Positions 4,685 through 27,528 of a stretch of DNA of 52,669 bases are shown piece after piece. Below the pieces are notes generated by a model, which was not told where the DNA came from, made no database searches, and saw nothing but the letters and a program-made list of their open reading frames with translations. Position 1 is the first letter of the stretch; every line of letters begins with the position of its first letter. The position numbers and the translations under genes are program-made. Source of the DNA: Sutterella sp. (lineage in GTDB: Bacteria; Pseudomonadota; Gammaproteobacteria; Burkholderiales; Burkholderiaceae_F); NCBI RefSeq assembly GCF_030539355.1, contig NZ_JAUNSF010000011.1, forward strand, positions 1-52,669, written 5' to 3'.

Positions 4685-4685
4685 G

Positions 4686-6424: not shown

Positions 6425-6428
6425 CGAG

Positions 6429-6445
6429 CGTGCATATACCGCGCC
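6429..6445 (+). promoter_or_regulatory. Recurring late-gene motif, copy 1
   Basis: CGTGCATATACCGCGCC lies four bases after the terminase stop and 24 bp before ATG 6470. It is identical over 17 bp to copy 5 at 33049. A small hairpin (GCGCC 6441-6445 with GGCGC 6452-6456) follows at once. Candidate phage-specific promoter or RNA-processing signal. Confidence 0.55.
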
Positions 6446-6469
6446 ACCTTGGGCGCGACCATCGCCCGC

Positions 6470-6910: not shown

Positions 6911-6911
6911 T

Positions 6912-7214: not shown

Positions 7215-7217
7215 GCC

Positions 7218-8882
7218 ATGCCGCGCGCACAGCCCAAGGAGATCCGCCGCAGGTTCGAGGCGCTCAAGTTCGACCGCACGACGTGGGAGCCGCAGTGGCA
7301 GGACATCCGCGACTTCATCCTGCCGGACGCCGGCGCCTTCTCGGGCGAGGACGTCCGCGAGGGCGGCAAGCGCTTCAGGAAGATCATGAATGCCGAGGCG
7401 ACCAGCTGCGCGGACATGCTCGCCGCGGGCCTGCTCGGCGGCGTGAGCTCACCCTCGCGCCCCTGGCTGCGCCTCACCACGAACGACGCGACCCTGGACG
7501 AGAGCCCCGCCGTCAAGCAGTGGCTCGAGGCCGTGCGCGTGCGCATGATGATGATCTTCGCCAAGGCCGAGGTCTACAACCAATTGCACCAGAGCTACCT
7601 CGAGCTTCCGGTCTTCGGCACGGCGTGCACGCTCGTGCGCGCGCACCCCGAGGACCTGATCGCGCTGCAGAACCTCACGATCGGCGAGTACTGGCTCGCT
7701 GACGACGAGTTCGGCCGCATCGACACGCTTTACAGGCGCTTTGAGATCACGGCCAAGCAGGTCATTCAGCGCTGGGGATGGGAGAAGGTCTCGCCCATGG
7801 TGCGCACCGCGTACGAGGCAGACCCGTGGACCAAGATCGGCATCATCCACGCGATCGAGCCGCGCCTCGAGCGCGACGAGATGAAGCGCGACAACTTGAA
7901 CAAGCAGTGGAGGTCGGTCTACTTCGAGGAGAACGGCGCCGACGACGCGCCCGTCTTGAACGAGTCCGGCTTCGATGACTTCCCCGCGCTCTGTCCGCGG
8001 TGGTTCACCGCCGGCGGATCCGTCTACGGCCGCGGGCCGGGCGCCAAGGCGCTCTCCGCGGCGAAGAGCCTGCAGCGCATCGAGGCGCGCCTCGCGCACA
8101 TCGCCGACCTCATGAGCAACCCGCCCGTGCAGTACCCGGCCTCCGCCTCGGGCTACCTCTCGCAGTTCAGGCCGGGCGGCCGCATCCCTGTCGCCGCGGG
8201 CGAGTCGCAGGCCATCCGCACGGCGTGGGAGGCCAACCTCGACATGCAGGGCCTGCTCACGCTGCTCGCCGCAAGCACCGCGCAGATCCAGAAGATCTTC
8301 TACGCGAACCTCTTCCAGATGATCGCCGGCACGACCGCGCAGGGCGACCGCACCGCGACCGAGGTGCAGGCCCTCGAGCAGGAGAAGGTGCTGATGCTCG
8401 GCCCCGTGCTTGAGCGCCTGCACACCGAGATGCTCGACCCGCTCGTCACGCAGACCTTCACGCGCATGGTCGAGACCGGCGACATCCCCGAGGTGCCGCC
8501 CGAGCTCGCCGAGCGCGAGCTCTCGGTCGAGTACATCAGCGTGCTCGCCGCGCAGCAGAACAGCGCCAACGTGAACAGCATCGTGCGCCTCACGCAGCAG
8601 ATCGGCATGCTCGCGCAGCTGAACCCCAACGCCCTGGACAAGCTCGACGTCGACACGACCATCGACGAGCTCGCCGACATGTACGGCGTGCCGCCTTCGA
8701 TGATCGTCGCCGGCGATCAGGTCGCGCTCATCCGCCGGCAGCGTGCGGATCAGCAGGCGCAGGCGCAGCAGATGGAGCAGCTGCAACAGGGCGCGAGCGC
8801 GATCAAGGACATGGCCGCCGCGAGCGACTCCCCGAGCATGCAGGAGGTGATGAGCAACCTCGGCACGGGCGGCGCGATCTGA
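7218..8882 (+). CDS. Portal protein (podovirus head-tail connector)
   Basis: This 554-aa protein matches the T7 gp8-like head-tail connector family in length and pattern. The N-terminus reads RRRFEALKFDRTTWEPQWQD with IRDFILPDAG. It then has MNAEATSCADMLAAGLLGGV with SPSRPWLRL, and a middle RTATEVQALEQEK, the typical 'TATEV' helix of these connectors. The dodecameric ring is the DNA entry and exit channel and docks the terminase. The C-terminus (about residues 505-550) is Gln-rich and probably helical barrel. It is preceded closely by the 100-aa gene and followed by motif copy 2. Confidence 0.9.
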   Translation: MPRAQPKEIRRRFEALKFDRTTWEPQWQDIRDFILPDAGAFSGEDVREGGKRFRKIMNAEATSCADMLAAGLLGGVSSPSRPWLRLTTNDATLDESPAVKQWLEAVRVRMMMIFAKAEVYNQLHQSYLELPVFGTACTLVRAHPEDLIALQNLTIGEYWLADDEFGRIDTLYRRFEITAKQVIQRWGWEKVSPMVRTAYEADPWTKIGIIHAIEPRLERDEMKRDNLNKQWRSVYFEENGADDAPVLNESGFDDFPALCPRWFTAGGSVYGRGPGAKALSAAKSLQRIEARLAHIADLMSNPPVQYPASASGYLSQFRPGGRIPVAAGESQAIRTAWEANLDMQGLLTLLAASTAQIQKIFYANLFQMIAGTTAQGDRTATEVQALEQEKVLMLGPVLERLHTEMLDPLVTQTFTRMVETGDIPEVPPELAERELSVEYISVLAAQQNSANVNSIVRLTQQIGMLAQLNPNALDKLDVDTTIDELADMYGVPPSMIVAGDQVALIRRQRADQQAQAQQMEQLQQGASAIKDMAAASDSPSMQEVMSNLGTGGAI

Positions 8883-8884
8883 TG

Positions 8885-8900
8885 CGTGCATATAGATCGC
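8885..8900 (+). promoter_or_regulatory. Recurring late-gene motif, copy 2
   Basis: CGTGCATATAGATCGC starts two bases after the portal stop and lies 15 bp before ATG 8916. The GTGCATATA core is shared with copies 1 and 5; the tail diverges. AATGAGGTG between motif and start is the ribosome-binding site. Confidence 0.5.
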
Positions 8901-8915
8901 GAATGAGGTGAAAGC

Positions 8916-9263
8916 ATGACGGACAACAACTTCGAGACCTACGAAGAGCGCGTCGAGCGCGAGGAGAAGGAGAAGAAGGCGGCCGAGGAGGCGGAGAAGC
9001 GGCTTGACACCGCGCTCCTCTCAGTCCTCGGCACGAAGAGCGGCCGCGAGGCGCTCGCCTGGATGCTCTCCCTCACCGCGCAGGACGTGAGCGTCACGGC
9101 CTTCGACGCGCTGCGCATGGCGTGGCAGTCAGGCCGGCGCGACGTGGGCCTCGACATCCTGACGAGACTCCGCGCGCTGAGCCCGGAGCTCGTCCGACTC
9201 ATGGAGCAAGAACGAGATGACCGAAGAAACACCCGCCTCGACGTCGACGGAGCCGGCAAGTGA
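8916..9263 (+). CDS. Hypothetical head-region protein, 115 aa
   Basis: A highly charged N-terminal coiled segment (YEERVEREEKEKKAAEEAEK) is followed by a compact helical domain (TALLSVLGTKSGREALAWML). A Bbp-type gene between portal and scaffold is usual in this phage group, but I cannot name its role. The last 47 bp overlap the scaffold start at 9217 in another frame. The C-terminal residues (DDRRNTRLDVDGAGK) may thus be constrained by the overlap. Confidence 0.6.
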   Translation: MTDNNFETYEERVEREEKEKKAAEEAEKRLDTALLSVLGTKSGREALAWMLSLTAQDVSVTAFDALRMAWQSGRRDVGLDILTRLRALSPELVRLMEQERDDRRNTRLDVDGAGK

Positions 9264-9927
9264 CCCGACGCCTGCCGCTTCGCCTGCGCCTGCTGCTGAA
9301 ACGCCTGCGGCCCCGGCTGCAGCGCCTGCGCCTGCTGAAGGTGCCGGCGCGGACCCTGCCGAGGGAGCGGACCCCGCACAGGCAGAAGCGGACGACGCGG
9401 ACGGGATAGATGCGCCTGTGGAGGGCCAGCCCGAGGGGGATGCCGATGAGAGCCCGGCATCCCCCGAGAGCTACTCGACCGAAGGCATCAAGCTGCCCGA
9501 GGGCATGAAGCTCGACGAGGTCACCGCCGGCGAGCTCGGCAAGGTGTGCAAGGAGCACGGACTCACGCAGAAAGCCTTCGCCGGGATCCTCGAGAAGATG
9601 ACCCCGGTGCTCGCGCAGAGGCAGCAACAGCAGCTTCAGGCCGCCAAGGTGGACTTCATCAAGCGCGCCAAGGCCGACCCGGAGATGGGCGGCGCCAACT
9701 GGGCCGCGACCAAGCAGGCCGCCGGCAAGGCGCTGGGGCAGTTCGCCGACTCGGAGACCATCGCGCTCCTCAAGGCGACCGGCCTCAACTGCCACCCCGG
9801 CGTCATCCGAATGTTCAAGAAGATTTCCGACGCTGTGTCGGACGACGCGATTGTGCGAGGCGATCGCGGCGGTGGTTCTCGGAAGTCCCTCGCCGGCTAC
9901 TACAACAACTCTCAGATGAACGACTAA
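9217..9927 (+). CDS. Head scaffolding protein
   Basis: This 236-aa protein has a long Ala/Pro/Glu-rich acidic N-terminus (about residues 1-90) and a helical, basic C-terminal half with a Gln run (RQQQQLQ). This composition and the position directly before the capsid gene are typical of podovirus scaffold (T7 gp9-like) proteins. They direct procapsid assembly through a C-terminal capsid-binding helix. ATG 9217 follows GGAGCAAGAACGAG within the preceding gene. No protease signature is visible. Confidence 0.7.
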   Translation: MTEETPASTSTEPASDPTPAASPAPAAETPAAPAAAPAPAEGAGADPAEGADPAQAEADDADGIDAPVEGQPEGDADESPASPESYSTEGIKLPEGMKLDEVTAGELGKVCKEHGLTQKAFAGILEKMTPVLAQRQQQQLQAAKVDFIKRAKADPEMGGANWAATKQAAGKALGQFADSETIALLKATGLNCHPGVIRMFKKISDAVSDDAIVRGDRGGGSRKSLAGYYNNSQMND

Positions 9928-9939
9928 AGGGGGTTTCCT

Positions 9940-10923
9940 ATGGCAACCAATCCGACCAGCACGACTCATCCGACCCTGCTCGATGTTGTCTCCCGCCTTG
10001 ACGGCGACGGCAAGATCGCGCCGATCGCTGAGGTGCTCAACGAAGACCTGCCGATTCTTCGCGACATCGGCTTCATTCAGTGCAACTCCGACCAGCGTCA
10101 CGTGCACACCATCCGCACGGGCCTGCCGACTCCGACGTGGCGCAAGCTCTACGGCGGCGTGCTCCCGAGCAAGTCCCAGACCGCACAGGTCACGGACGTC
10201 TGCGGCAACCTCGAGGCGTACTCCGAGGTCGACAAGGACCTCGCGGACCTCAACGGCAACACGTCCGCCTGGCGCTTCTCCGAGGAGCGTCCCTTCATCG
10301 AGGCGATGGGTCAGACCATGGCCGAGACGATCTTCTACGGCGACGTCACCGTGAACCCGGAGCGCTTCACCGGCATCGCGCCGCGCTACAACACGCTCAA
10401 CACCGACACGCCGTGCGCGCGCATGGTGAAGAGCATGGGCGGCACGAGCGACCTCACCTCGCTCTACTTCATCTCGCACTCGGTCTTCCACGGCCTCTAC
10501 CCGAAGGGGTCGACGGGCGGCCTCAGCAAGACGGACAAGGGCCAGGTCACGATCACCAAGGACGACGGCTCGATGTTCGAGGCGTACCGCACGCACTTCA
10601 AGTGGGGCATCGGCACGACGCTCGACGACTGGCGCGGCTGCGCGCGCGTCTGCAACGTCGACATCAACAACGTCGACGGCGACGCGCTCATCGCCGCCAT
10701 GATCAAGGCCAAGAACGAGATCCTCGCCAAGTACGTGGGCCGCACCAAGCTCTACGTGCGCCGCGAGATCATGACGATCCTCGAGCTCGCCGCGCTCTCG
10801 AAGAGCTATCAGTGCCTCAAGATCACCGAGGCCGCTGATCAGTTCAAGACCTCCTTCTTCGGCATCCCGATCGTCGTCTGCGACTCGATCTCGATCAACG
10901 AGGATCAGGTCACCGCTGACTAA
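9940..10923 (+). CDS. Major capsid protein
   Basis: This 327-aa protein follows the scaffold by 12 bp with a strong AAAGGGGG ribosome-binding site. It has the features of the Bbp17/GP7-like podovirus capsid group: LLDVVSRLDGDGKIAPIAEV, a mid-region ADLNGNTSAWRFSEERPFIE with AMGQTMAETIFYGD (spine-helix region), and a C-terminal IPIVVCDSISINEDQV. It would form the HK97-fold shell. The coding sequence is almost free of A/T at third positions, as expected for a highly expressed gene in this genome. The cement protein follows 17 bp later. Confidence 0.85.
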   Translation: MATNPTSTTHPTLLDVVSRLDGDGKIAPIAEVLNEDLPILRDIGFIQCNSDQRHVHTIRTGLPTPTWRKLYGGVLPSKSQTAQVTDVCGNLEAYSEVDKDLADLNGNTSAWRFSEERPFIEAMGQTMAETIFYGDVTVNPERFTGIAPRYNTLNTDTPCARMVKSMGGTSDLTSLYFISHSVFHGLYPKGSTGGLSKTDKGQVTITKDDGSMFEAYRTHFKWGIGTTLDDWRGCARVCNVDINNVDGDALIAAMIKAKNEILAKYVGRTKLYVRREIMTILELAALSKSYQCLKITEAADQFKTSFFGIPIVVCDSISINEDQVTAD

Positions 10924-10940
10924 TTCAAGGAGAAACAAAA

Positions 10941-11339
10941 ATGCTGCTTGACACCCTTTCTGAGTTCTCCGACGGTCAGGCGCTGTCGGGCTCGTCCGCC
11001 TACTCGACGAACACGCTCGACCTCGCCGGCGCCGGCATCGCGGTCGCAGACCATGCCTATGTGGTCGTGTCCGTGCTCACCGCGACGGCCTCCGACCTCA
11101 AGGCCGAGCTTCAGTGCTCCGAGGACGGCTCGACGTGGCGCGCTGTCGCCTCGGGCTCGGTCGAGACCGGCGCGGCCGGCGACCAGATCGTGCTCGACAT
11201 CCCGCCTGACGTCTTCGGCAAGCTCCGCCTCGCCTACACGGGCACGAGCATGACGGGCACGGTCCACGCCGGCGTCACGCTCGGCGCGCAGACGAGGAAG
11301 CGCATCGGCGACTTCGCGGCTTCTGCGAACGGCGCTTAA
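10941..11339 (+). CDS. Capsid cement/decoration protein (Bbp16-like)
   Basis: This 132-aa protein begins LLDTLSEFSDGQALSGSSAY and continues as an all-beta Ala/Thr/Ser-rich chain (SVLTATASDLKAELQCSEDG), ending in a short basic segment. This resembles the Bbp16 capsid cement family of BPP-1-type podophages. Those proteins trimerise on the shell, and the family always follows the capsid gene. AAGGAG at 10927-10932 sets the start. An intrinsic terminator follows at 11370. Confidence 0.75.
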   Translation: MLLDTLSEFSDGQALSGSSAYSTNTLDLAGAGIAVADHAYVVVSVLTATASDLKAELQCSEDGSTWRAVASGSVETGAAGDQIVLDIPPDVFGKLRLAYTGTSMTGTVHAGVTLGAQTRKRIGDFAASANGA

Positions 11340-11369
11340 TCACCAACCGCAAGGAGGTGATCCACATCT

Positions 11370-11393
11370 CGGGGGCTTCGGCCCCCGTTTTCG
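11370..11393 (+). terminator. Intrinsic terminator after capsid genes
   Basis: CGGGGGC-TTCG-GCCCCCG forms a 7-bp GC stem with a UUCG tetraloop, followed by TTTTCG. It separates the head genes from the tail genes; the TAGGAGG ribosome-binding site of the next gene follows directly. Confidence 0.8.
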
Positions 11394-11405
11394 TAGGAGG
11401 AAACC

Positions 11406-12041
11406 ATGGCATCTGATGTCGACATCTGCAACCTGGCTCTCGCGCGCCTGGGCGACGAGGCCAACGTCACAAGCATCAGCCCGGCCGACGGCGGCATGCA
11501 GGCCGAGCACTGCGCGCGCTTCTACCCGCTCGCGCTCTCCCAGATCCTCGGCGCCTACCCGTGGCGCTTCGCCATCAAGCGGCAGACGCTCGCGAGGCTC
11601 GCCGCGGAGCCCGTGGGCGGCGGCTATGCCTTCCCGCTGCCGAGCGACTGCGTGACCGTGCTCGAGGCGCACGTCGACGACGAGGGGCTCACCGAGCACT
11701 TCATGCGCACGCTGTGGACGATCGAGCAGCAGGACTCCCGCGCCTGCCTCGTGTGGAAGCACGATACGTGCTGGATCCGCTACACGTCGGCCAAGACGCC
11801 GGCCTCGCTCTTTCCGAGCGATTTCGTCGACGCGCTCGCGTGGCTCCTGGCCTCGCACCTCGCCGGCCCCGTGATGCCCGGCGCGACCGGCGTGCAGGTC
11901 TCGCAGAGCATGCGCGAGATCTACGAGGCGACGGTGCAGCGCGCGATGGCCAACGACGCGCGGCAGCTGCGGCTGCACGAGGGCCGCCGCGAGGACTTCC
12001 TCGGCGACTACTGGGACAGGGGGCAGCATGACTACTTCTAA
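11406..12041 (+). CDS. Tail tubular protein A / head-tail adaptor
   Basis: This 211-aa protein resembles the T7 gp11-like adaptor family. The N-terminus DVDICNLALARLGDEANVTS is diagnostic (family pattern 'ICNxALxxLG'), followed by FYPLALSQILGAYPWRFAIK and a helical C-terminus. It would ring the portal and connect it to the nozzle. TAGGAGG at 11394-11400 supports ATG 11406. It overlaps the next gene by 14 bp. Confidence 0.85.
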   Translation: MASDVDICNLALARLGDEANVTSISPADGGMQAEHCARFYPLALSQILGAYPWRFAIKRQTLARLAAEPVGGGYAFPLPSDCVTVLEAHVDDEGLTEHFMRTLWTIEQQDSRACLVWKHDTCWIRYTSAKTPASLFPSDFVDALAWLLASHLAGPVMPGATGVQVSQSMREIYEATVQRAMANDARQLRLHEGRREDFLGDYWDRGQHDYF

Positions 12042-14859
12042 GGTGATCCAGCGCAGCTTCACAGGCGGCGAGATCTCGCCCCGCATGCACGGGCGCATCG
12101 ACCACACCACGTACCAGACCGGCCTCGAGGAGTGCCTGAACGCCTTCATCCTGCCGCAGGGGCCCGTGCAGAACCGTCCCGGCTTTGCGTACGTCAACGC
12201 CTGCAAGTACCCCGGCAAGGCGACGAGGCTGATCCCGTTCACGTTCAGCGAGAGCCAGACGATGGTGATCGAGCTCGGCGACAAGTACGCGCGCTTTCAC
12301 ACCGACGGCCAGACGCTGATGAACGCCGCCGGCACGGCGCCCTACGAGATCGCGACGCCGTGGGCCGCCGAGCACCTCTTCGAGCTCCACTACGTGCAGA
12401 GCGGCGACGTGATGACGATCGTGCACCACTACTACCCGCCGACCGAGCTCAGGCGCTACTCCGCGCAGGACTGGCGCGTGGCCGAGGTGAGCTTCGACCC
12501 GAAGCTCAGCACGCCCACGGGCGTCACCGCCGTGCGCGCGACCGCGGCCGAGAGCGACAGCAACGCCGAGAAGTACACCTTCAAGTACAAGGTCGCCGCG
12601 CTCTCGAGCGACAAGCTCTACGAGAGCAAGCCCTCCGACGCGGTCGAGGTGGTGGCCAACCTCTACGCGACCGGCACGACCGTGCGCGTGTCCTGGAACG
12701 CCGTCAGCGGCGCGGAGTTCTATCGCGTCTACAAGTACCAGGGCGGCCTCTACGGCTGCATCGGCGACACCGAGGACACGTACCTGATCGACGATGACAT
12801 CGACGCCGACCTGAGCATCACGCCGCGGCGCTTCGGCACCGCCTTCACGGCCTCGGGCGGCATTGAGTCGGTCACCATCAACTCAGGCGGCACGGGTTAC
12901 TCGAGCTTCAAGAAGGGCATCGCAGCCACGCCGAGCGCGACCACGTACGGCTCGCTCGGCCTTACCTCGAGCAGCAGCAACGTCTTCGAGAGCGTCGTGA
13001 GCTCGCTGACAGGATCGTCATCGACAAAGTACTTGAGCGTGGCCACACACGCGCTGCAGAGCTCGGGGAGCTATCCGTCGACGTACCCGACCTTCACGCT
13101 CGAGGTCTACGACGAGCAGGGGCAGGGATCGGGCGCCGTGGTCGAGCCCGTCATCGAGTACACGACAGGCACGAGCTACGATCGCTGGAACGCCGGCGGG
13201 CAGAGCGCGGACTCGCGCGACTACCGCACGGTTTACTACTACAAGAACATTGCAACGCTTACAGGGTTCACGATCAAGAACCCCGGCCACGGCTACATCA
13301 CGCCCAAGCTCAAGGTCACCTACACCTGCACGACGACCCGCCGCGGCAGCATTTCCTCGGCCTCGGGCACCGGCACCGCTTCGCTCAACACGCAGGACGT
13401 CTCGCCGGTCTTTAACGTCGAGGAGCTCTCCTCGAGCGGCTCGGGCGCGACCCTCGAGGCCGTGGTCACCGACGGCGTCATCACCGCGGTCAACGTGCTC
13501 ACCGGCGGCTCGGGCTACTCCTCGCCGACGATCACCGTCACGGATCCGCTGGGCGTCGGCTCGGGCGCGAGCTTCACCGCGGTCGTCTCGTCGACGGGCG
13601 ACTACCCCTCGGCCGTGACCTACTTCGAGCAGCGCCGCTGGTTCGGCGGCACGCCCAACCTGCCCACGAAGCTCTGGGCCACGCGCACGGGCACCGAGGA
13701 CGACCTCAGCTACTCGCTGCCGAGCGTCGACGACGACCGCCTTGAGGCGCAGATCTCCGCGAGGACGTTCTCGAAGATCCGCCACCTCGCCGCGCTCGCG
13801 CACCTGATGGTGCTCACCGGCGACAGCGAGCTCCGCATCAGCCCGCTCAACTCCGACGCGATCACGCCGGACTCGATCAGCGCGCGTCCGCAGTCGTACA
13901 TCGGCAGCAACGACGTGCAGCCCGTCACGATCAACTCGGCGCTCATCTACTGCGACAGCATGGGCGGACACCTGCACGAGTTCGCCTACAACGACTCCGC
14001 CGGCGGCTATGTCTCGGGCGACCTGTGCCTGCTCGCGCCGCACCTCTTTGACTACCGGCAGGTGGTCGACATGGCCTTCATGCGCGCGCCGTTCCCCGTC
14101 ATCTGGTGCGTCTCGAGCTCGGGGCAGCTGCTCGGCCTCACGTACGTGCCCGAGCAGCAGGTGGGCGCGTGGCACCGGCACGAGACCGACGGCGCCTTCG
14201 AGTCGGTCGCCTGCGTGGCCGAGGACGACGAGACCGCGCTCTACGCAGTTGTGCGGCGCACGATCCAGGACAGCGTCGTGCGCTACGTCGAGCGCTTGAG
14301 CACGCGGCAGTTCGAGAACCTCGAGGACTGCTTCTTCGTGGACTCGGGCGGCACGTACCGCGGCGCGGAGACCACGACCGTGAGCGGGCTCACGTGGCTC
14401 GAGGGCAGGACCGTCTCGATCCTCGCCGACGGCGCGGTGCTGCCGCAGCAGACGGTGACCGACGGCACGATCACGCTCGAGGTGCCGGCCTCCGTGGTGC
14501 ACGTGGGCTTGCCCTACACGACCGAGGTGAAGAGCCTGCCCACCGTGCTGCAGAAGGAGGGCTACGGCATGGGCGAGCCCAAGAACGTGAGCGAGGTCGC
14601 GATCAGGCTCTACGAGTCGAGCGGCATCTGGGTCGGCTACAGCGACAGCACGCTGAAGAAGTACGACGCGGAGACCGAGCGCTTCGCCGAGTACGCGCAG
14701 CGCACGACCGAGCAGCCCGGCACGGCCCCGGCGCGCGTCACGGGCGAGATTCGCATCAAGCCGCCTGTGCGCTGGTCCGACGGCGGGCAGATCTGCCTCA
14801 AGCAGGACGACCCGCTGCCGCTCGAGATCTCGAGCATCGCGATGACGGTCGCTTCCTGA
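12028..14859 (+). CDS. Tail nozzle protein (tubular protein B-like) with inserted repeat domain
   Basis: This 943-aa protein has the N-terminus of podovirus nozzle/stabilisation proteins (QRSFTGGEISPRMHGRID, then GLEECLNAFILPQGPVQNRP with RPGFAYV). Typical beta-propeller segments resume after about residue 520 (YFEQRRWFGGTPNLPTKLWA). Between roughly 268 and 522 lies an extra Gly/Ser/Thr-rich domain with repeats of the form GG-x-GYSS: NSGGTGYSS, NPGHGYITP and TGGSGYSSPTITVTDP. The length is above that of T7 gp12 (794 aa) because of this insert. The N-terminus overlaps the adaptor gene. Motif copy 3 follows the stop at once. Confidence 0.82.
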   Translation: MTTSKVIQRSFTGGEISPRMHGRIDHTTYQTGLEECLNAFILPQGPVQNRPGFAYVNACKYPGKATRLIPFTFSESQTMVIELGDKYARFHTDGQTLMNAAGTAPYEIATPWAAEHLFELHYVQSGDVMTIVHHYYPPTELRRYSAQDWRVAEVSFDPKLSTPTGVTAVRATAAESDSNAEKYTFKYKVAALSSDKLYESKPSDAVEVVANLYATGTTVRVSWNAVSGAEFYRVYKYQGGLYGCIGDTEDTYLIDDDIDADLSITPRRFGTAFTASGGIESVTINSGGTGYSSFKKGIAATPSATTYGSLGLTSSSSNVFESVVSSLTGSSSTKYLSVATHALQSSGSYPSTYPTFTLEVYDEQGQGSGAVVEPVIEYTTGTSYDRWNAGGQSADSRDYRTVYYYKNIATLTGFTIKNPGHGYITPKLKVTYTCTTTRRGSISSASGTGTASLNTQDVSPVFNVEELSSSGSGATLEAVVTDGVITAVNVLTGGSGYSSPTITVTDPLGVGSGASFTAVVSSTGDYPSAVTYFEQRRWFGGTPNLPTKLWATRTGTEDDLSYSLPSVDDDRLEAQISARTFSKIRHLAALAHLMVLTGDSELRISPLNSDAITPDSISARPQSYIGSNDVQPVTINSALIYCDSMGGHLHEFAYNDSAGGYVSGDLCLLAPHLFDYRQVVDMAFMRAPFPVIWCVSSSGQLLGLTYVPEQQVGAWHRHETDGAFESVACVAEDDETALYAVVRRTIQDSVVRYVERLSTRQFENLEDCFFVDSGGTYRGAETTTVSGLTWLEGRTVSILADGAVLPQQTVTDGTITLEVPASVVHVGLPYTTEVKSLPTVLQKEGYGMGEPKNVSEVAIRLYESSGIWVGYSDSTLKKYDAETERFAEYAQRTTEQPGTAPARVTGEIRIKPPVRWSDGGQICLKQDDPLPLEISSIAMTVAS

Positions 14860-18144: not shown

Positions 18145-21100
18145 ATGTCGAAACTCCTTGCAGCAGTCAACAACTCGATCAACATCCGGGAGCCGTACTT
18201 CGATCCGAGCACGGTTGTGACCGGCGAGCCCGACGACGAATACAGGCTCGCTCCCGACCGCGCCGTGCGGCTCAGCAACCCCGAGGCCGGCATGCTCACG
18301 AACCTGTGGGGCGGCCTGAAGATGGGCTACTCCGGCATCGAGCAGGGCACGCTCTGGTCGGAGATGCGCGACAAAGGCATCGAGTTCGATGCTGCCGGCC
18401 TGCCGCTCGACAAGGGCTTCCGCCGCAAAAACCAGGCGCTCGAGGACGCGCTCTTCTCCGCGAGCGTCGGCATCAACCAGGACAGCTTCAGCTACGACCT
18501 GGGCAACCTCCTCGGCTCAGTGGTGGGTGGTGCGTTGCATTCTGCGCGCGGCGCTGCCGTCGCCGGCACGATGGGTGCCTGGTGGCTGAGCGCCACGGGC
18601 GCAGGCGCGGCTGCCGGCTCGATCGTTCCGGGCGTCGGCACTGCCGCAGGTGCGGCCGCAGGCGCCGCCGTGAGCGCCGTGGGCACGGCCATGGCCACCG
18701 CGGGCACGTTCGACTCGATGTACCAGGCCGAGGGCGGCAACTCCTTCCGCGACATGGTGCAGGCCGGCATCGACCGCCGCACGGCGATGTACGCCTCGTC
18801 GGTGGTCGGACTGCTCAACGGCGGCCTCGAGGCCGGGAACGTGAAGGTGATGCTGAGCCCGCTCCTGCGCCCCGTGCTCGAGTACGCCGAGCGCGAGATC
18901 ACCGCAGCGGCGCTCAGGCAGATAACGCAGGGCTACGCGCTCCGCACTGCGGCGAAGGCGTACGGCGTCAACGTGGCGAGCGAGACGGCGACCGAGGTCG
19001 CGCAGCAGGCCATCACCATGGCCATGGGCGAGTTCGCGCGCTACATCTCGACGCCGGACCGCCCCGGCCTGACGGCCGAGGAGGTGTGGGATGAGCTCTC
19101 GAGCACGGCCGTGCACGCCTTCCGCGGCATGGTGCTCATGGGCGGCCTGACGGCGATCCCCTCCTACGGCTACCAGGCACACCGCGCGCGGCAGGCCGAG
19201 AAGACCGTCGAGTTCTTCGAGAAGCTGCAGAGCAGCGCGCCGACCATTCAGACCGCGACCGATCCGCGCGGCATGGCCGAGCGCATCGTGCGCGACGAGG
19301 GCGGCAGCGACGTCAAGACCGTCTACATCGACGGCAAGGTGTTCAACCAGGCGCTCGTCGACAACGGCGTGAGCCGCGAGGATCTGGCCAAGGTGCTGCC
19401 CGATGTGGCGGCGAACCTCGATCAGGCCGTGCTCAACCATGCCGACGTCGAGATCCCTGCCGCGGTCTACGCCGAGACGATCGCCGGCACGCCGCTCGGG
19501 CAGAACCTCATGCAGCACGTGCGCCTGGATCCCGAGGCCGAGTCGTACTTCGAGATGCGGCAGTCCGAGCGCGTCACGGGCGAGATGCTCGAGGCCATGC
19601 GCGAGCTCGAGCAGAACCCCGAGCAGGCCGAGGCGAAGATCAGCGAGGCCGAGCAGCGCCTCGAGAAGACCGAGACGGACGAGCAGAAGACCTTCCGCCG
19701 CGAGCTCATCGAGCGCATCAAGGAGGAGATGCGCGCGACCGGCGCACCCCTCAGCGAGTCGCAGTTGTCGGCGTCCGCCCGCATGGTGGCGACGATCGTC
19801 GGCAACACCGCGCGCCGCAGGGGCATGTCCTATCAGGAGGCCGAGAAGCTCCGTCCGCGCTTCGTGAGCCGCGCGCCCGAGGGCGTGCTGAACCAGGGCG
19901 CCATCGCCGAGCCGGTCACCGAGCTCACGCCGGCAGAGGAGCAGATCCTCCGCGATGCCAAGCTCGAGCCTGAGGTCGAGGAGGACCTGCGCAGGCAGAT
20001 TCTCGCCGCGCATGAGACATATCGCCCCGAGAACGGCTGGATGCCCGTCGAACTCTCGAAGATCAAGAAGGGCGACGATGGCTACGCGCCGGAGTTCAAA
20101 ACGAGCGCTTACACATTCAATCTTGACGACAACGGCAAGGCGCTGAAGCGCGGCACTCCCGAGTACACGGACCGCGTGATCGCCATCTCCGACGGTCTCG
20201 TTGAGGAAGTGCGTGCGATCTACCACCGCATGCTCGACGGCGACAAGGAGGCTGCGAACATCATCGGACAGGCGTCCTGGTACAAGGCCATGCGCAGCCG
20301 CCTGCGCGAGGAGTTTGGCTCTGCCGGCGACGTGCTCGCCGACCTGCTCGGCGCGACCTCTCCGAAGACCCCTGTGCGCGAGAATTGGCAGTCAGCAGTC
20401 GACATCATGCGCCAGCTGACGCGCGGCAACTGGGACGAACTTCTGCCCGTCTGGGAGGACTGGGACAAGCAGCGCATCGCGACACTGCAGGCCATCAGCG
20501 ACCTTGTTGACAAGGAGCGCCCGTACACCGTTGACGCCAATGGCAGAAAGAAGTACGCGGTCAGCGCGGACAAGGTCAAAGAGCTTCCTGAGTACAAGAA
20601 GCTCGAGGAGCTTTCGAAGAAGCTCGCCCAGATAGTCAATTACCGGCTCCCCCGCAAGGAGTCGGGCGCGCTCTACAGCACCAACTCAGGCAACGCTCTG
20701 AGAGCGATTCTTGGTCACTGGCGTGAGGTGCGAAACGCGAACCCGCTTAAGCGAGTCGGCAAGACCGCGCCGAAGGCGATCACCTTCGCTGGCAACCTGA
20801 TCGGCTACGCGCCGGGCGCGACCATCGACGTGTGGGCTGCGCGCCTGCTGCAGCGACACGCCGGCAAGCTCCGTGTGGCGCCGCGTGCCGAGGGTGCCGT
20901 CAAGGGCGATCTGACGATTGACGAAGACGGAAACTGGGAAAGCACCGGGCAGTTTGGCCTCGGCCAGGATGCCATGCACCGCGCTGCCGAGCTCATCCGC
21001 GCGGATCCCGAGCTCTCGCAGGATGAGCGGCTGCGCACGGTGCAAGACGATGACCTGCAGGCCGTCGTGTGGTTCGTCGAGAAAGAGATCTGGACCATCA

Positions 21101-24100
21101 ATGACTGGACGACCGCCGAGGGCGCCGGCGGCTCCTTTGAGTACGAGGCCGATCTCGAGGGCAACCCCGACCGCGAAGGCATCAGGAATGCCCGCTCAAC
21201 ACTGAACCGCGCCGACAGCACCGAGGAAGAGAGGCAGGCCGCGCGAGAGTTTCTCGAGGCCGCCAAGGATCGCGTCTCGCGCTACCAGGCCGGCATCTCG
21301 CTCACGATGGGCAAGGGCACTCAGGGCGCCGACTTCATCCCGCAGGACGCCGACCAGGCTGTCGCCGCGCGCCGCATGCGCGACGCCGCCGTGGCCGCCG
21401 ACGACGGCGTGCATCTGCTTTCCTTCCACGCGAACACCACCGACGGCGTCTACATGGGCTCGCACGAGACCTCCTTCGACGTCGAGCTCGTGGCCCGCAC
21501 CGGCTACGATCCGTCGAACGTGTTCCGCACCGTGATCGACATCGCGCGCTCGAAGCACCAGGACTCGACCTTCATGAGCCGCGTGCTGAAGGACGGGGAG
21601 AAGGTTGATTACCTGCGCCACCGTCCCGGCGTCGAGATCTATTTCAAGGAGGGGCACCCGTACGACAGCGAATACGTCAAGACTCTGATCAAAAAAATTG
21701 AGGGGGAGGGCGTCACGTTCTACACTGTGATTACGGACGCTCGCCCCTCGGCCGACGCTCGCGCGGGTCGCATGCCCAACGCCACCGGCATCCGATTTCA
21801 GTTCGTGCCGGAGTTCAATGCGGATGCGTTTGAAGGGCTTTCCGATCAAGAAATCGAGGCTGCCGTAAAGGCGGAGGCCAATAAATACGACGACATCGTT
21901 GAGTCTTGCAGAGATATTGAAGGCATTACTTACGCGGATGTGGCCTGGTATGACACGACCGTAGTCTTCAGGAAGGAATATGACGAACGACTCACCCCAC
22001 AGAACGTACACGATGAAGGAAGTGCTCGAGGAGAGGTACCAAACCTTTCTGAAGGAGGGCAGGGATCCGAACTCGCGGCAGATGCTGCACATTCGGGAGA
22101 AGATCGCGATCATCGAGCGGAAGGAGAGGATGCAGGAGCTCAGGGAGAACGAGCCGGAGCGCTACCGCTTCTTCATGGGCGGCCCGAACATTCACGAGTA
22201 GAGATCGGCTCGAGCATCCGCGACGGCGTGCGCCGTGCGCGCGAGCACTACGCCTGGCACGAGACGCATAAGCCCTCCAAGGAGGAGCTCGCGGTCGCCA
22301 CGCAGAACGAGCCCGAGCTTCCCAAGCCTCAGGAAGGCATCTACAAAGTGGATGCCGAGATTGAGAAGCAGGAAGAGATCAACCGCCTCGAGGAAGAGGC
22401 CAAGGCCGAAGCAAAGCGCTCCAAGAAAAAGAGCAAGGGAAAGGCGAAGGCCGGCGAGCTCAATCAGCCGTCCATCCAGCAGAGGAATGAACAGAGATAT
22501 GCCAACATCAACCCGAGAGAACGCAAGGGGCTCTATCGCATCGACGGCGGTGCCGACCTCCGCGCAGACATCCGGCAGGGAGGGCTGGCGGCCCAAGGTG
22601 CCGTATTCCGAGAAGAAGCTCAGACCGATCTCCGCGGAGACGAGGGCGTACGTGCAGAAGAAGCTCGCGGAGCTTCGACAGCCAGCTCCGAGGGAAGAGA
22701 TGACGCTCGAGGCCGCAGCGAAGCGGTACGGAATGACGGTCGAGGAACTCGAGGAGGTGTATCGCGAGCACGGACTCTGATCGACGACAAGCGCGCGACC
22801 GTCGTCAAGGTATGGCGCGCCGGCGGCACATCTGAGACCGGCCTGCGGGGCTACCTTGAGGAGAATGTGCGCCTCAGCGGCGGCAGAGTGCTCGACGCTG
22901 CAACGGACTTCTACGAACTCGAGTCCGGCGCCAAGTCCGCGAAGGTCTTCTGGGAGAAGTGCCGCTCGGCCAAGCGCAGTCAGCTGTTCGGAGCTTGTGT
23001 CGATCTCAAGAGCCGTGCGGAGCTCAAGGGGCTGCGTCTTTTCCTCTCGCCGGACGGACAGTCTGGCTTCGCGCTCAAGAACGGCGATGACATTGTTTCG
23101 GTCTTCAGCAAAAAGGGTTCTCAGGCCGGTCTTGCTGTCGTTCACTGTGCCATTGCCGCCGGCGGCCGCCGTCTGGATTGCTTCAACACCATCCTGCCCG
23201 AGTTCTATGGCAGTGCGGGCTTCATTCCTGTCGCGCGTGTGAAGTTTGACCGGCAGTGGGCGCCGGACGGCTGGAACTACGATCTGTTTGACCGCTTCCA
23301 GAGCGGCGAGCCCGACATCGTTTTCATGGTGTATGACGGCGAGGCTCGCGAGAATCTGGTCACGCCCGACCGCATTGAGGCCATTGACTACGCCACCGAC
23401 TACGACGCCGGCGAGGACATGCAAGTCGCTTTCGTGGACGCACTCTCTGAGACCAGCGAGGCGCTCGAGCGCACGGTTGCAGAGGCGAGTGAGAACGCGG
23501 CACCTGGCTCGCTGCAGCAGGACGCCCGCGGCGGCTTTAACACTGCGACCAACGAGATCAGCCTGAGCCTCAACTCCGACGTCTCGACCGTCGTGCACGA
23601 GATGGGGCACTGGTACCTCGAGAACCTGCTCGCGGCGGCGACCGACCCGAACGCGAGCGCGCTCTTTCGCGAGGACGCGCAGACCATCCTCGAGGCGCTC
23701 GGCCTCAAGAGCGTCGACGAGTGGAACGCGCTTGACTTCGAGCAGCGCCGCCCCCTGCACGAGCGCTTCGCGCACTGGGCCGAGCTCTACATCACCACCG
23801 CGAAGGCGCCGACGCCGAAGACCGAGGGCTTCTTCCGCCGCATGGGTGGCTGGGTGATCGACGTCTACCGCGCAGTGAAGTCCACGATCGAGAGCCGCAT
23901 CGGTGCGCAGTACCAGGCTGCGACCGGCGAGGCGCTCCCCGAGATCTCGCCCGAGGTCCGCAGGGTCTTCGACCGCATGCTCGTGGGCGAGGAGGCCATC
24001 ATCAACGCCGAGCGCGCCGAGGGTCTCGAGCCGCTCTTCGAGAGCAAGCCCGAGGACATGTCCGACGAGGAGTGGCGGCAGATCATGCTCGAGCGCGATG

Positions 24101-27100
24101 ACGCCGAGCGTGCCGGCGCGGAGAAGATCACGGCCGCGCATGCCCGCGACGAGAAGTGGTACGCCAACGCGCGCGAGCGCGAGCGCAAGAAGATCGACAA
24201 GCAGGTCGCCGAGCTCCGCAAGCAACTGCGCGAGAAGGCCGAGCGCAAGATCAACGGGCGCAAGGACGTCATCGCCGTCGACATCCTCAAGACCGGCGGC
24301 AAGGCTTTCGGCATCGAGAACCTCAAGCTCGACCCGGACAAGCTCCGCGCTGCCGGCCTCTCCGAGCGCACGACGGCGAAGCTCATCGCCATGGGCGTCA
24401 CCAAGCACGGCGGCCTCTCGCCCGAGCAGACGCTGCAGCTGCTGCAGCCGTTCGCGCGCTTCACGAACGTGCGCCAGATGATCAGCCAGATCGCGGCCTG
24501 CGGCGACAAGGAGCAGATGATCGAGGACGAGATCACGGCGCGCCTGGTGGCCCAGCACAGCGAGCTCGTCGACCCCGCGAGCGTGGAGCGCCTCATCACC
24601 GAGGCTCTGCACAACGAGGCCCGAGGCCGCATGGTCGCGCACGAGCTCGCCTACCTCGCCGGCGACAAGACCGGCAACTCGAGGATCTACCGCGCCGCGG
24701 CCCGCAGGGCAGCCGAGCAGCTGCTCTCGCGCATGCCGGTCAGGGACATCACCGCGCGCCGCTTCATGCGCGCCGAGGCCCGTGCCGCGCGCGAGGCGCA
24801 GGAGGCTTTCAGCAAGGGCGACCGCGAGGCGGCCGTGCTCGCCAAGCGCGCTCAGCTGGTGCAGCACGAGGCGGCGCTGCTCGCGCTCAACTACACCGCC
24901 GAGCTCGACAACTTCAAGAGCCTGCGCGGGAAGGTCTTCGGCAACAACACGAAGCTCGCGAAGACCCGCGACCTCGACATCGTGAACATCGCCCGCTACC
25001 TCATGACCAACAAGGGCCTGGGGCACAGCGCGAAGCCCGTCGACGGCGCGGCCGCCGATGAGTACATCAAGAATCTCAAGGCGCACGACGAGAACAAGTT
25101 CGAGGCTTACAGGGCCATGGTCAAGGACGGCGGCTTCACGGGCGTCATGTTCCCTGACATGCCGATGGGTGAGGCGCACGAGTTCATGGAGAACGTCCGC
25201 GCGCTCTGGCGACAGTCCGGCGAGGCGCGCAAGCTCGAGCTCGACGGTCAGCGGCTCGACCTCGAGGAGGCCGTCGACGCGCTCGTCAAGACCGCCGAGG
25301 CTCGCCCGCACAAGGGCAAGATCGCCGGCAAGCTGCACGCCGTCGACAGCGACGACAAGGCGGCCTTCGGGCTCCGCGGCATCGCGGCCCAGCTGGTGCG
25401 CGTTGAGAACCTCTGCAGATGGTTCGACGGCGGCACCCAGGGCGCCTTCACCAACTACATCTTCCGTCCGATCGTGAACGCGACCGCGCGCTACCGCGTC
25501 AAGAACAACGAGCTCCAGAAGCAACTCGCCGACTTGATCGAGCCGATGCACGTGCGCTGGGAGCTCGTGCGCAACATCGAGGCGCCCGAGATCAACTACA
25601 CCTTCCGCAACAAGGCCGAGCTCATCGCGGCGATCCTGCACACCGGCAACGCCTCGAACAAGCGCAAGCTCCTCCTCGGCGGCCGCGGCAAGGACCGCCC
25701 CTGGGGCAAGATCGCCGAGGACCAGGACGGCAACCCGACGGGCGAGCTCGACAGCAGCGCCTGGGACAACTTCATCGCCCGCATGTACCGCGAGGGCTAT
25801 GTCGACGAGCTTGACATGGACTTCGTGCAGGCCGTGTGGGATACGCTCGAGTCGACCAAGCACGAGGCCCAGGTGGCCTACCGCAAGATGTTCGGCCGCT
25901 ACTTCCAGGAGATCGAGGCGACCGAGATCGAGACCCCCTGGGGCACCTACCGCGGCGGCTACGTGCCGGCCGTGACCGACCACTACCTGGTCGACGAACG
26001 CAGCAGGCAGGAGGAGATCGAGCGCGCGCTCTCGCAGGACACGTACCTCAAGGTTATGCCGGTCAACGACCCCGGCTTCGCGCAGAGCCGCGTCGAGGGC
26101 TACAACCGCCCGCTCGCGCTCGACATCGGCAGCTTGACGGGGCACGTGCAGAAGGTGCTGAAGTTCTCGATCATCGGCCCGGCGGCTCAGGAGGTCTCAA
26201 AGGTCGTGCAGAACCGAGAGTTCCGCGAGGCGGTGAACCTGCACGGCGGCCACTTCCTCGACAAGGTGATCGAGCCGTGGATCAAGCGCTCGTACGAGCA
26301 GAGCATCAGCGACGGCAAGGTCGACGAGGTGAGCTCTGCACTCAATCGCCTGCGCAGCCTCGCCGGCATGAACATCATGGTCGGCCACATCATCAACGCG
26401 CTGCAGCAGAGCACCGGCCTCTCGATCGCCGCGGCGCTCGTCGGCAGCAAGGAGATCGCGCACGCCTTCTCGGCCTACATCCGCTTCCCCGGCAAGACCC
26501 TGCAGGAGATCGCGGACCGCTCGCCCTTCATGAAGGCGCGCCTTGAGGACCGCTCCTTCGAGTACGAGTCGCAGACGCGCCGCGCCGGCGCGACCGACGC
26601 CATCCCGGTGAAGGAGGCTCGCGGCGCCTTCAACAAGGTCGCCGCGCTCGACGCGAAGCTCGAACCCGCGCGCGCCGCTGTGGGCCGCCTCGGCTACTTC
26701 CTGCAGAGCGCGATGCAGAAACCGATCGACGGCATCGTGTGGACGGCGGGCTACAACAAAGCCATCCGCGAGGGCATGTCCGAGCAGGACGCTGTCGCCG
26801 AGGCCGACGCGCTCGTGCGCCGCACGCAGTCCGACTTCTCGCCCGAGAACCTCTCCGAGGTCGAGACCGGCAGTGCGCTCTACCGCGCCTTCCTGGTGTT
26901 CTACAACTACTTCAACATGCAGCTGAACCTGCTCGCCGAGCGCGGCATGCTCGCGCGCGAGACCAAGCAGTACGGGCGCTTCGCCAAGGAGGCGCTGCTC
27001 ATCTCGTGGGTGCCGTCGGTCCTCTCCGCGGTCATCCTGCGCATGATCGTGGGCGGCTGGGACACGGACGATGACGACGACTGGGATGCGTACGACGCGC

Positions 27101-27528
27101 TGCAACTCTTCGTCGGCGAGCCGCTCAAGGGCGTCATTGCCATGGCGCCGTTCATCGGATCCGGGGTGAACTCCGTCGCAGCGTACTGGGCAAATGATGA
27201 CTCACTGCCGCTGCACGGCACGCTCGAGACGCTCTGGGGCAAAGACCCCTACGTCGGGCGTGTTATGAGTTCCCCGGCCGTTGACCTTGTTGTCGGTGCT
27301 GCCGGCGGCGTGGCCACGGTCGCCCGCACGGTGACCGGCGAGGAGCAGCCTAACGCGCGCACGGCCATGCGCAACTTCCTCGATCTGCTCTCCGTGGTGC
27401 TGAGGCTCCCGGTCGGCGCACTCAAGAAGGAAGCGGGCTACATGGCGGGCGTCTATGCCGACGAGATCCACCCGGAGAACGCCGGCGACTTCGTACAGGG
27501 GCTGTTGCGCGGCCGAGGAGAGGACTAA
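18145..27528 (+). CDS. Giant polyvalent internal virion protein, 3127 codons
   Basis: A single open frame runs over 9.4 kb. Visible parts: a Gly/Ala-rich membrane-active stretch (about residues 130-232) and coiled regions (about 480-570). A domain at about 730-915 contains LLGATSPKTPVRENW and GATIDVWAARLLQRH, seen in phage polyvalent proteins. A possible acetyltransferase-like module lies at about 1550-1735, and a zincin motif HEMGH at 1818-1822 with a downstream FAHWAELYI. The C-terminal part (about 2850-2940; KPIDGIVWTAGYNKAIREGM) is typical of large phage-associated polyvalent proteins, with hydrophobic segments after 2945. It is presumably ejected with the DNA. Residues about 1280-1352 and 1470-1545 look non-native: another frame carries the coding signal there. 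Confidence 0.8.
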   Translation: MSKLLAAVNNSINIREPYFDPSTVVTGEPDDEYRLAPDRAVRLSNPEAGMLTNLWGGLKMGYSGIEQGTLWSEMRDKGIEFDAAGLPLDKGFRRKNQALEDALFSASVGINQDSFSYDLGNLLGSVVGGALHSARGAAVAGTMGAWWLSATGAGAAAGSIVPGVGTAAGAAAGAAVSAVGTAMATAGTFDSMYQAEGGNSFRDMVQAGIDRRTAMYASSVVGLLNGGLEAGNVKVMLSPLLRPVLEYAEREITAAALRQITQGYALRTAAKAYGVNVASETATEVAQQAITMAMGEFARYISTPDRPGLTAEEVWDELSSTAVHAFRGMVLMGGLTAIPSYGYQAHRARQAEKTVEFFEKLQSSAPTIQTATDPRGMAERIVRDEGGSDVKTVYIDGKVFNQALVDNGVSREDLAKVLPDVAANLDQAVLNHADVEIPAAVYAETIAGTPLGQNLMQHVRLDPEAESYFEMRQSERVTGEMLEAMRELEQNPEQAEAKISEAEQRLEKTETDEQKTFRRELIERIKEEMRATGAPLSESQLSASARMVATIVGNTARRRGMSYQEAEKLRPRFVSRAPEGVLNQGAIAEPVTELTPAEEQILRDAKLEPEVEEDLRRQILAAHETYRPENGWMPVELSKIKKGDDGYAPEFKTSAYTFNLDDNGKALKRGTPEYTDRVIAISDGLVEEVRAIYHRMLDGDKEAANIIGQASWYKAMRSRLREEFGSAGDVLADLLGATSPKTPVRENWQSAVDIMRQLTRGNWDELLPVWEDWDKQRIATLQAISDLVDKERPYTVDANGRKKYAVSADKVKELPEYKKLEELSKKLAQIVNYRLPRKESGALYSTNSGNALRAILGHWREVRNANPLKRVGKTAPKAITFAGNLIGYAPGATIDVWAARLLQRHAGKLRVAPRAEGAVKGDLTIDEDGNWESTGQFGLGQDAMHRAAELIRADPELSQDERLRTVQDDDLQAVVWFVEKEIWTINDWTTAEGAGGSFEYEADLEGNPDREGIRNARSTLNRADSTEEERQAAREFLEAAKDRVSRYQAGISLTMGKGTQGADFIPQDADQAVAARRMRDAAVAADDGVHLLSFHANTTDGVYMGSHETSFDVELVARTGYDPSNVFRTVIDIARSKHQDSTFMSRVLKDGEKVDYLRHRPGVEIYFKEGHPYDSEYVKTLIKKIEGEGVTFYTVITDARPSADARAGRMPNATGIRFQFVPEFNADAFEGLSDQEIEAAVKAEANKYDDIVESCRDIEGITYADVAWYDTTVVFRKEYDERLTPQNVHDEGSARGEVPNLSEGGQGSELAADAAHSGEDRDHRAEGEDAGAQGERAGALPLLHGRPEHSRVEIGSSIRDGVRRAREHYAWHETHKPSKEELAVATQNEPELPKPQEGIYKVDAEIEKQEEINRLEEEAKAEAKRSKKKSKGKAKAGELNQPSIQQRNEQRYANINPRERKGLYRIDGGADLRADIRQGGLAAQGAVFREEAQTDLRGDEGVRAEEARGASTASSEGRDDARGRSEAVRNDGRGTRGGVSRARTLIDDKRATVVKVWRAGGTSETGLRGYLEENVRLSGGRVLDAATDFYELESGAKSAKVFWEKCRSAKRSQLFGACVDLKSRAELKGLRLFLSPDGQSGFALKNGDDIVSVFSKKGSQAGLAVVHCAIAAGGRRLDCFNTILPEFYGSAGFIPVARVKFDRQWAPDGWNYDLFDRFQSGEPDIVFMVYDGEARENLVTPDRIEAIDYATDYDAGEDMQVAFVDALSETSEALERTVAEASENAAPGSLQQDARGGFNTATNEISLSLNSDVSTVVHEMGHWYLENLLAAATDPNASALFREDAQTILEALGLKSVDEWNALDFEQRRPLHERFAHWAELYITTAKAPTPKTEGFFRRMGGWVIDVYRAVKSTIESRIGAQYQAATGEALPEISPEVRRVFDRMLVGEEAIINAERAEGLEPLFESKPEDMSDEEWRQIMLERDDAERAGAEKITAAHARDEKWYANARERERKKIDKQVAELRKQLREKAERKINGRKDVIAVDILKTGGKAFGIENLKLDPDKLRAAGLSERTTAKLIAMGVTKHGGLSPEQTLQLLQPFARFTNVRQMISQIAACGDKEQMIEDEITARLVAQHSELVDPASVERLITEALHNEARGRMVAHELAYLAGDKTGNSRIYRAAARRAAEQLLSRMPVRDITARRFMRAEARAAREAQEAFSKGDREAAVLAKRAQLVQHEAALLALNYTAELDNFKSLRGKVFGNNTKLAKTRDLDIVNIARYLMTNKGLGHSAKPVDGAAADEYIKNLKAHDENKFEAYRAMVKDGGFTGVMFPDMPMGEAHEFMENVRALWRQSGEARKLELDGQRLDLEEAVDALVKTAEARPHKGKIAGKLHAVDSDDKAAFGLRGIAAQLVRVENLCRWFDGGTQGAFTNYIFRPIVNATARYRVKNNELQKQLADLIEPMHVRWELVRNIEAPEINYTFRNKAELIAAILHTGNASNKRKLLLGGRGKDRPWGKIAEDQDGNPTGELDSSAWDNFIARMYREGYVDELDMDFVQAVWDTLESTKHEAQVAYRKMFGRYFQEIEATEIETPWGTYRGGYVPAVTDHYLVDERSRQEEIERALSQDTYLKVMPVNDPGFAQSRVEGYNRPLALDIGSLTGHVQKVLKFSIIGPAAQEVSKVVQNREFREAVNLHGGHFLDKVIEPWIKRSYEQSISDGKVDEVSSALNRLRSLAGMNIMVGHIINALQQSTGLSIAAALVGSKEIAHAFSAYIRFPGKTLQEIADRSPFMKARLEDRSFEYESQTRRAGATDAIPVKEARGAFNKVAALDAKLEPARAAVGRLGYFLQSAMQKPIDGIVWTAGYNKAIREGMSEQDAVAEADALVRRTQSDFSPENLSEVETGSALYRAFLVFYNYFNMQLNLLAERGMLARETKQYGRFAKEALLISWVPSVLSAVILRMIVGGWDTDDDDDWDAYDALQLFVGEPLKGVIAMAPFIGSGVNSVAAYWANDDSLPLHGTLETLWGKDPYVGRVMSSPAVDLVVGAAGGVATVARTVTGEEQPNARTAMRNFLDLLSVVLRLPVGALKKEAGYMAGVYADEIHPENAGDFVQGLLRGRGED
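21980..22201 (+). CDS. Nested gene B inside the giant virion gene, 73 aa
   Basis: Here the +1 frame, not the giant frame, looks coding. Over 22021-22140 its third positions are about 90% G/C, while the giant frame falls to about 27%. ATG 21980 is preceded by AGGAAGGA. The product is charged and helical (TMKEVLEERYQTFLKEGRDP then NSRQMLHIREKIAIIERKER) and ends MGGPNIHE before a TAG. Either it is a real overlapping gene inserted into the virion gene, or the C-terminus of the upstream part reached by frameshift. Function unknown. Confidence 0.6.
   Translation: MTNDSPHRTYTMKEVLEERYQTFLKEGRDPNSRQMLHIREKIAIIERKERMQELRENEPERYRFFMGGPNIHE
22499..22780 (+). CDS. Nested gene D inside the giant virion gene, ~93 aa, HTH-like end
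   Basis: The +1 frame carries the coding signal from about 22562 to the TGA at 22780: over 22621-22680 GC3 is about 85%, against 45% in the giant frame. Possible starts are ATG 22499 (AGAGGA about 12 bp upstream) or ATG 22487. The convincing part of the product reads WRPKVPYSEKKLRPISAETR, then AYVQKKLAELRQPAPREEMT, and ends in an HTH-like EAAAKRYGMTVEELEEVYRE. Before 22562 the giant frame looks better, so a frameshifted fusion is an alternative to a nested gene. The TGA overlaps a CTG in the giant frame. Confidence 0.55.
   Translation: MPTSTRENARGSIASTAVPTSAQTSGREGWRPKVPYSEKKLRPISAETRAYVQKKLAELRQPAPREEMTLEAAAKRYGMTVEELEEVYREHGL

Follow-up and report, generated by a model that had tools for sequence, protein, structure and literature searches.

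Can one virion-type gene of a double-stranded DNA phage house further genes in another of its reading frames? The question is raised by the 52,669-nucleotide Sutterella contig analysed here over its whole length (the window), in which an earlier note had seen the coding signal pass to the +1 frame at two places inside a giant ORF, and had offered true overlapping genes, frameshifts or a split of the giant protein as possible explanations. Same-strand nested genes are a classical theme of tiny phage genomes, and in phage lambda Rz1 is nested in Rz. In phiX174, gene E is nested in gene D (PMC8227390), and as a class nested genes are familiar. No account of conserved nested-gene families inside 3000-codon dsDNA phage genes was found in the open-licence PMC papers covered by the search. 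As in the phiX174 and lambda pairs, a same-strand gene lies wholly inside another in a different frame (here with a start of its own that we infer). Unlike them, the nested genes here number two and lie in a virion-type gene of 3000 codons from a dsDNA podovirus, the outer protein reads them as inter-domain stretches, and one of the two, orf1, also occurs un-nested in relatives. We put the probability that orf1 and orf2 are out-of-phase overlapping genes with starts of their own, each next to a cargo module of a giant protein of virion type, at slightly above 80%. Since similar genes recur at the same places in many uncultured phages, both look like real genes that standard annotation has missed.

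The contig carries a podovirus late region with a terminase, a head-tail adaptor, the major head protein and two tail proteins, the first with an additional match to a tail tubular family. At 14917 lies an internal virion protein (phrog_418), and an 856-aa gene at 15562 occupies the gp15 position and takes its gp15 label from that position. The giant ORF itself, stop-free over 3127 codons (3127 aa), spans 18145-27528 on the plus strand, as do all features placed within it below, and tail fibre or spike genes lie downstream of it, from 27767. In T7, the structural region runs in the order tail proteins, internal virion protein, gp15, gp16 and tail fibre, and gp16 is ejected. Because the gene order equals that of the T7 structural region, the giant gene is placed where T7 keeps gp16, preceded by gp14- and gp15-like genes and followed by the tail fibre, and from this order its product may be packaged in the virion and ejected. 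The likeness to gp16 is one of position only: no Pfam domain, lytic transglycosylase included, is matched anywhere in the giant protein, and PHROGs gave no transglycosylase either. No close DNA relatives of the giant gene were found among phage or plasmid records. Elsewhere in the window, two proteins (41444-44263 and 45774-47618) match phrog_6880 (E 3.4e-29 and 2.3e-139), which PHROGs labels 'translation elongation factor', a strange label for adjacent phage genes. A 30-bp match on another contig of the same genome, C78, looks like chance, and no common gene was seen there.

The core of the giant ORF, residues about 1-600 and 1780-3124, matches phrog_9880 and is shared with a Sutterella wadsworthensis prophage (apparently of DSM 14016), at 29% identity over residues 16-599 and 44% over 1782-3124. 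The S. wadsworthensis homologue is without residues about 600-1780, and its core halves lie ~190 residues apart; the window therefore holds an extra middle of ~1180 residues. This middle consists, in order, of domain X, orf1 in the +1 frame, a stretch termed Y, orf2 in the +1 frame and domain Z, and both small ORFs are located within this gained-or-lost part, outside the core. The candidate effector-type domains of the giant protein are Z, which is acetyltransferase-like, and X, which is weakly DUF7178-like. In polyvalent proteins of phages and conjugative elements, Iyer et al. (2017, PMC5512222) report domains of the GNAT acetyltransferase and MPTase metallopeptidase types, and the giant protein of the window is likewise very large and apparently multidomain, with the acetyltransferase-like Z and an HEMGH stretch at residues 1818-1822. 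In the main text of that paper the word 'overlap' is absent, and both uses of 'nested' concern hairpin structure.

Within the window, the evidence for coding in the inner frame is a shift in the GC content of third codon positions (GC3), the substitution tests being made on relatives. Giant-frame GC3 is 74-100% in most 150-base steps (68% at 21745 and 66% at 23095), and it drops to 48% at 21895, 32% at 22045, 66% at 22495 and 44% at 22645, the +1 frame reaching 92% in the step at 22045. In 40-codon windows, a rival frame leads the giant frame by more than 0.15 in two regions only (window starts 21955-22135 and 22525-22705), and in both regions it is the +1 frame. The per-frame computation bears out the observation of the earlier note: high GC at third positions passes to the +1 frame at 21980-22201 and about 22598-22780, where giant-frame GC3 falls to 32% and 44%, respectively. 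The contrast between +1 and giant-frame GC3 is 0.56 at 21980-22198 and 0.40 at 22598-22777, against maxima of 0.19 and 0.10 in 1000 synonymous recodings of the giant protein; elsewhere in the giant ORF it stays at or below 0.03 in all of 273 windows of 60 codons. That the +1 frame is open is by itself not significant, as it stayed open in 540/1000 recodings for orf1 and 715/1000 for orf2; the signal is one of codon composition and conservation.

The first nested ORF, orf1 (21980-22201, 73 aa), runs from an ATG at 21980 to a TAG at 22199-22201 and is preceded by the Shine-Dalgarno-like AGGAAGGA at 21970-21977, read from the sequence as in the earlier note. The second, orf2 (22598-22780, ~60 aa), is taken from a GTG at 22598 to a TGA at 22778-22780, which overlaps the giant-frame CTG at 22777. 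Its candidate starts are ATG 22487, ATG 22499 and GTG 22598, the +1 frame being open from 22202. Both assignments draw on the GC3 shift, relatives and profile matches. The end of each +1 ORF at a stop likewise agrees with the earlier description. Between the two lies Y (22202-22597), delimited by giant-frame GC3, for which no relatives were found in the searches made, a search with Y across the genome of the window giving the window alone; it includes a lysine-rich charged part. Neither orf1 nor orf2 of the window has a PHROGs family or a Pfam match at its cut-off, and searches for close relatives of the two proteins gave none in viral contigs and only the window itself among 67 genomes of the family.

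Relatives were reached through the neighbouring domains, the loci being sampled through X for orf1 and through Z for orf2, and not through the small genes. Domain X (19990-21993, giant-frame residues about 616-1283) matches five IMG/VR viral contigs at 43-46% identity in the best segments, and in each a +1 ORF directly follows X. A profile of the X C-terminus has 279 relatives in IMG/VR, of which 80 were examined, the first five contigs among them; many of these loci are near copies, and L058, L069 and L072-L074 are the same contigs as L029, L033 and L030-L032. A small +1 ORF lies right after X in 80/80 of these loci (among the matches listed, 80 of 279), and a possible ATG start is present in 81/81 loci including the window (again among the matches listed), a start statistic that is biased because the start rule favoured ATG and Shine-Dalgarno-like sites. 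The X contigs span 32-69% GC, and a GC-rich shadow frame is therefore not the cause of orf1. Window X is 32-45% identical to 47 aligned X sequences and contains a DUF7178-like stretch that is weak (E 0.0011, below its cut-off). The X proteins of L072-L074 and L029 have a C-terminal giant-frame element in common, after orf1.

By sequence, nothing credible was found for X in the Protein Data Bank (best E 0.11). Phage records gave no match to X of L029 or L113; none of the 40 of 155 matches listed for the window query touches X, and the 15 of 899 matches listed for the whole L079 gene all lie outside X. A search with X plus Y in 369 genomes of the class returned the window alone, and the X C-terminal profile gave the window and one weak match (E 4.2e-4) in 399 genomes of the order. 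Plasmid matches were seen in two Caballeronia records, and a Sideroxydans locus (L025) was also met.

Among the matches listed, the X frame encloses the whole of orf1 in 45 of 81 loci, the window counted. In 34 others the giant frame stops inside orf1, whose start then overlaps the end of X as in an ordinary next gene, and in eight of these 34 there is an operon-like overlap of 4 or 8 bases between the orf1 stop and the gene that follows. In the remaining two (L035 and L036) orf1 is cut by the contig end; both count as partial in the locus and substitution counts and as nested in the pair counts for stops before the ATG, and are left out of the openness test. In two of the 45 nested loci (L096 and L107) the X ORF ends about a dozen codons past orf1; these carry a separate label in the X tree and are out of the substitution and openness sets. 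An assembly error or a recent frameshift mutation of a single base, splitting what should be other genes, would give just such a switch of coding signal between frames as the window shows, and the earlier note had named it. The same arrangement recurs at the same place in the 45 nested loci, the orf2 arrangement is also found in the isolate genome of Limnohabitans phage DC33, and the position-specific substitution pattern described below needs long-term coding. With the arrangement recurring in dozens of contigs, read errors are excluded for the orf1 and orf2 families, and for the window itself we consider them extremely improbable.

The giant frame also appears to be under constraint where it crosses orf1. 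In a tree of 48 X sequences, which is quick and unrooted (L036 labelled nested, L035 left out) and in which the window, unusual in composition, forms a long branch of unsure place, the nested state forms one clade of 29 rows (SH-aLRT 100) with one change. In 28 of these 29 rows, low-GC genomes included, no giant-frame stop falls within orf1, and in the 29th, L036, the giant frame is open to the contig end, which speaks against a split of the giant protein into several products. Were orf1 alone under constraint, the giant frame would, by synonymous recoding, be expected to stay open in 4.7 of 43 nested loci; in 17 nested loci below 50% GC the frame is open though the chance of this is 0-2.5% per locus. 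Because openness itself served to define 'nested' and some of the loci are almost identical, it is the single nested clade that makes openness informative, softening both the circularity and the redundancy without removing either. Selection that keeps the giant frame open across orf1 looks real. The idea of insertion into the virion gene holds in part: the whole cargo region, together with its small genes, is what comes and goes between relatives, but X and orf1 occur together in both the nested and the un-nested state, which are separated by one change in the tree.

Domain Z (22781-23340), in the giant frame and directly downstream of orf2, matches phrog_2563 and acetyltransferase-annotated proteins. 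Of its 243 relatives 80 were examined, many of them near copies, and a +1 ORF occurs at the matching place in 75/83 Z loci under a permissive rule (an open +1 segment of at least 50 codons that ends near the Z start, with a start 40-130 codons before its stop), a count that takes in ORFs without the common C-terminal motif. The other eight loci comprise five that are cut by contig ends and three uncut ones (L170, L175 and L177). In most relatives, the domain upstream of orf2 differs from that of the window. The presence of +1 ORFs at both places in many phages favours true overlapping genes among the explanations first offered, and runs counter to the view that the +1 products are without homologues.

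When the orf2-type protein of L139 was compared with phage records, only Limnohabitans phage DC33 was matched (PQ492659, PMC12195039; locus L116). The record describes a 3126-aa giant ORF as one hypothetical protein; like the window, it has Z with a nested +1 orf2-type ORF directly before it, whose ATG is at L116 4696 and whose product would have 71 aa. It differs from the window in that no orf1-type ORF was seen, X is represented at best by a remote relative, and a further nested +1 ORF stands directly after Z, at about 5545-5733. By eye, the C-terminus of the DC33 ORF after Z is similar to the extension that orf1 has at its C-terminal end in L042 and L070. The deposited taxonomy of DC33 is Inoviridae despite a 39-kb genome and a podovirus-like giant protein, and is probably a mislabel. 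In Microbacterium phage UtzChips, an actinobacteriophage (locus L117), Z lies in a minor capsid gene, and a 47-aa nested +1 ORF with a weak Shine-Dalgarno-like site (3984-4124) precedes it at the orf2 place. Neither of these two isolate records has anything nested annotated.

Which of the two frames governs the evolution of these segments was addressed in disjoint pairs of loci, relatives only, by comparing substitution rates at giant-frame positions 1, 2 and 3. At <80% identity there were 26 nested orf1, 21 partial orf1 and 16 nested orf2 types, the nested orf2 set consisting of ATG-headed ORFs of 55-80 codons. Nested orf1 has rates of.271/.181/.160 versus.18/.123/.42 in the flanking upstream X (19 pairs), and the third position of orf1 itself changes faster than its second in 15 pairs versus 2, with 2 ties (p=0.0023). 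The partial, un-nested orf1 behaves likewise, with.326/.174/.135 versus.149/.101/.446 in X (16 pairs, 15 versus 1). For nested orf2, pooled rates are.248/.161/.174 versus.131/.073/.364 in Z, and the per-pair sign test is not significant (11 versus 8, p=0.65). Selection on the inner frame is thus clear in the relatives for orf1, and is seen for orf2 in the pooled rates.

A blind scan for nested ORFs that span at least 45 codons and have both a start and a Shine-Dalgarno-like site yielded 474 candidates, of which 444 lie in +1 and 30 in +2, with 13 clusters found in at least six loci. The own third position is fastest only in the two largest clusters, which are orf1 and orf2, the clear orf2 family comprising 51 ORFs from 40 loci. 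Ten clusters (3-12) were judged to be shadows of the giant frame because the third position of that frame changes fastest by a wide margin. In the 13th, an L119-type cluster of six loci at the orf2 place, the giant third position is narrowly fastest (.349 versus.314).

The window copies are divergent, at 11-31% identity to the family for orf1 and 19-30% for orf2. Against profiles built without the window, the orf1 and orf2 segments each rank first among 818 open segments, taken from all six frames over the full window, with E values of 0.022 and 0.31. Each match is weak alone, and first rank for both at the predicted places would be hard to get by chance. This divergence would also suit a different history, in which once-free genes were captured by read-through and are now, in the window, only linker-coding DNA. 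Such relics would be expected to drift towards the GC3 pattern of the giant frame, but in the flagged windows of orf1 the +1 frame has a GC3 of.72-.95 versus.28-.60 in the giant frame, and the stop codon and a ribosome-binding-like site are retained; we give this history only a slender chance.

How ribosomes would reach the +1 frame is the next point on which overlapping genes and programmed frameshifting part. Under the latter, some ribosomes would slip out of the giant frame close to 21980 and 22560 and terminate at the +1 stops, yielding shortened proteins with alternative C-termini; good giant-frame coding does precede both +1 ORFs, stops end them, and the long open +1 stretch ahead of the orf2 stop (22202-22777) is one in which a shift could occur. 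For orf1, however, a stop codon stands directly upstream of the ATG in the +1 frame in 16/45 nested loci, which speaks against entry by frameshift from upstream, and the open +1 segment of the window begins at 21965, only five codons before the ATG. ATG heads and Shine-Dalgarno-like sites upstream of them (which the choice of start favoured) agree with independent initiation, as does the tight operon spacing seen in some of the un-nested relatives. Taken over both genes, programmed frameshifting is improbable, less so for orf2 of the window, where the open +1 stretch leaves it some room, than for orf1. Initiation at an internal start of its own is suggested for orf1 by this indirect support, and the same is proposed for orf2.

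If orf1 and orf2 are overlapping genes of this kind, both would lie out of phase on the same strand in one long, truly translated giant ORF, and each would give a small protein of about 60-75 aa, while in the giant frame they would be read as linker-like sequence under loose constraint. The +1 bias is explained by codon geometry: a giant codon is made up of the third, first and second base of inner codons, and as it begins with the GC-rich third base of the inner one, few giant-frame stops arise. With orf1 after X and orf2 before Z, in the variable middle of what may be a polyvalent, ejection-type virion protein, each small gene sits beside a cargo domain, so that domain and small gene could be gained or lost together. 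The small protein may be a partner of its cargo domain, such as a chaperone, an antidote or an assembly factor.

A wider proposal, which we put forward tentatively and think doubtful as a whole, is that, across a wide group of uncultured phages, giant genes of ejection type hold a second gene layer, in which a domain and its small +1 partner are swapped as one unit because both frames are kept open. The small protein would serve its own cargo domain as antidote or chaperone; it would be produced while virions assemble and then be left behind or co-packaged. The orf1 and orf2 families offer a lead to small proteins beside cargo domains, and a strict test bed for dual-frame selection, because the same gene occurs nested and un-nested in one protein family.

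Some further observations were made in individual loci. In a genome of the family (G012, locus L017), a stop-interrupted remnant of Z plus core lies beside an ORF that is transposase-like by eye. In L018 (Sutterellaceae), the reverse-strand ORF 8539-13389 has a GC3-flagged region at residues about 1480-1530, where the +1 reading is open, without a clear gene. A point in favour of nested genes comes from L029 (the same contig as L058), where the giant ORF 289-9648 contains, close to its 3′ end, an HNH endonuclease gene (phrog_3377, E 1.2e-40) in the +1 frame at 8981-9478, with the giant frame open throughout.
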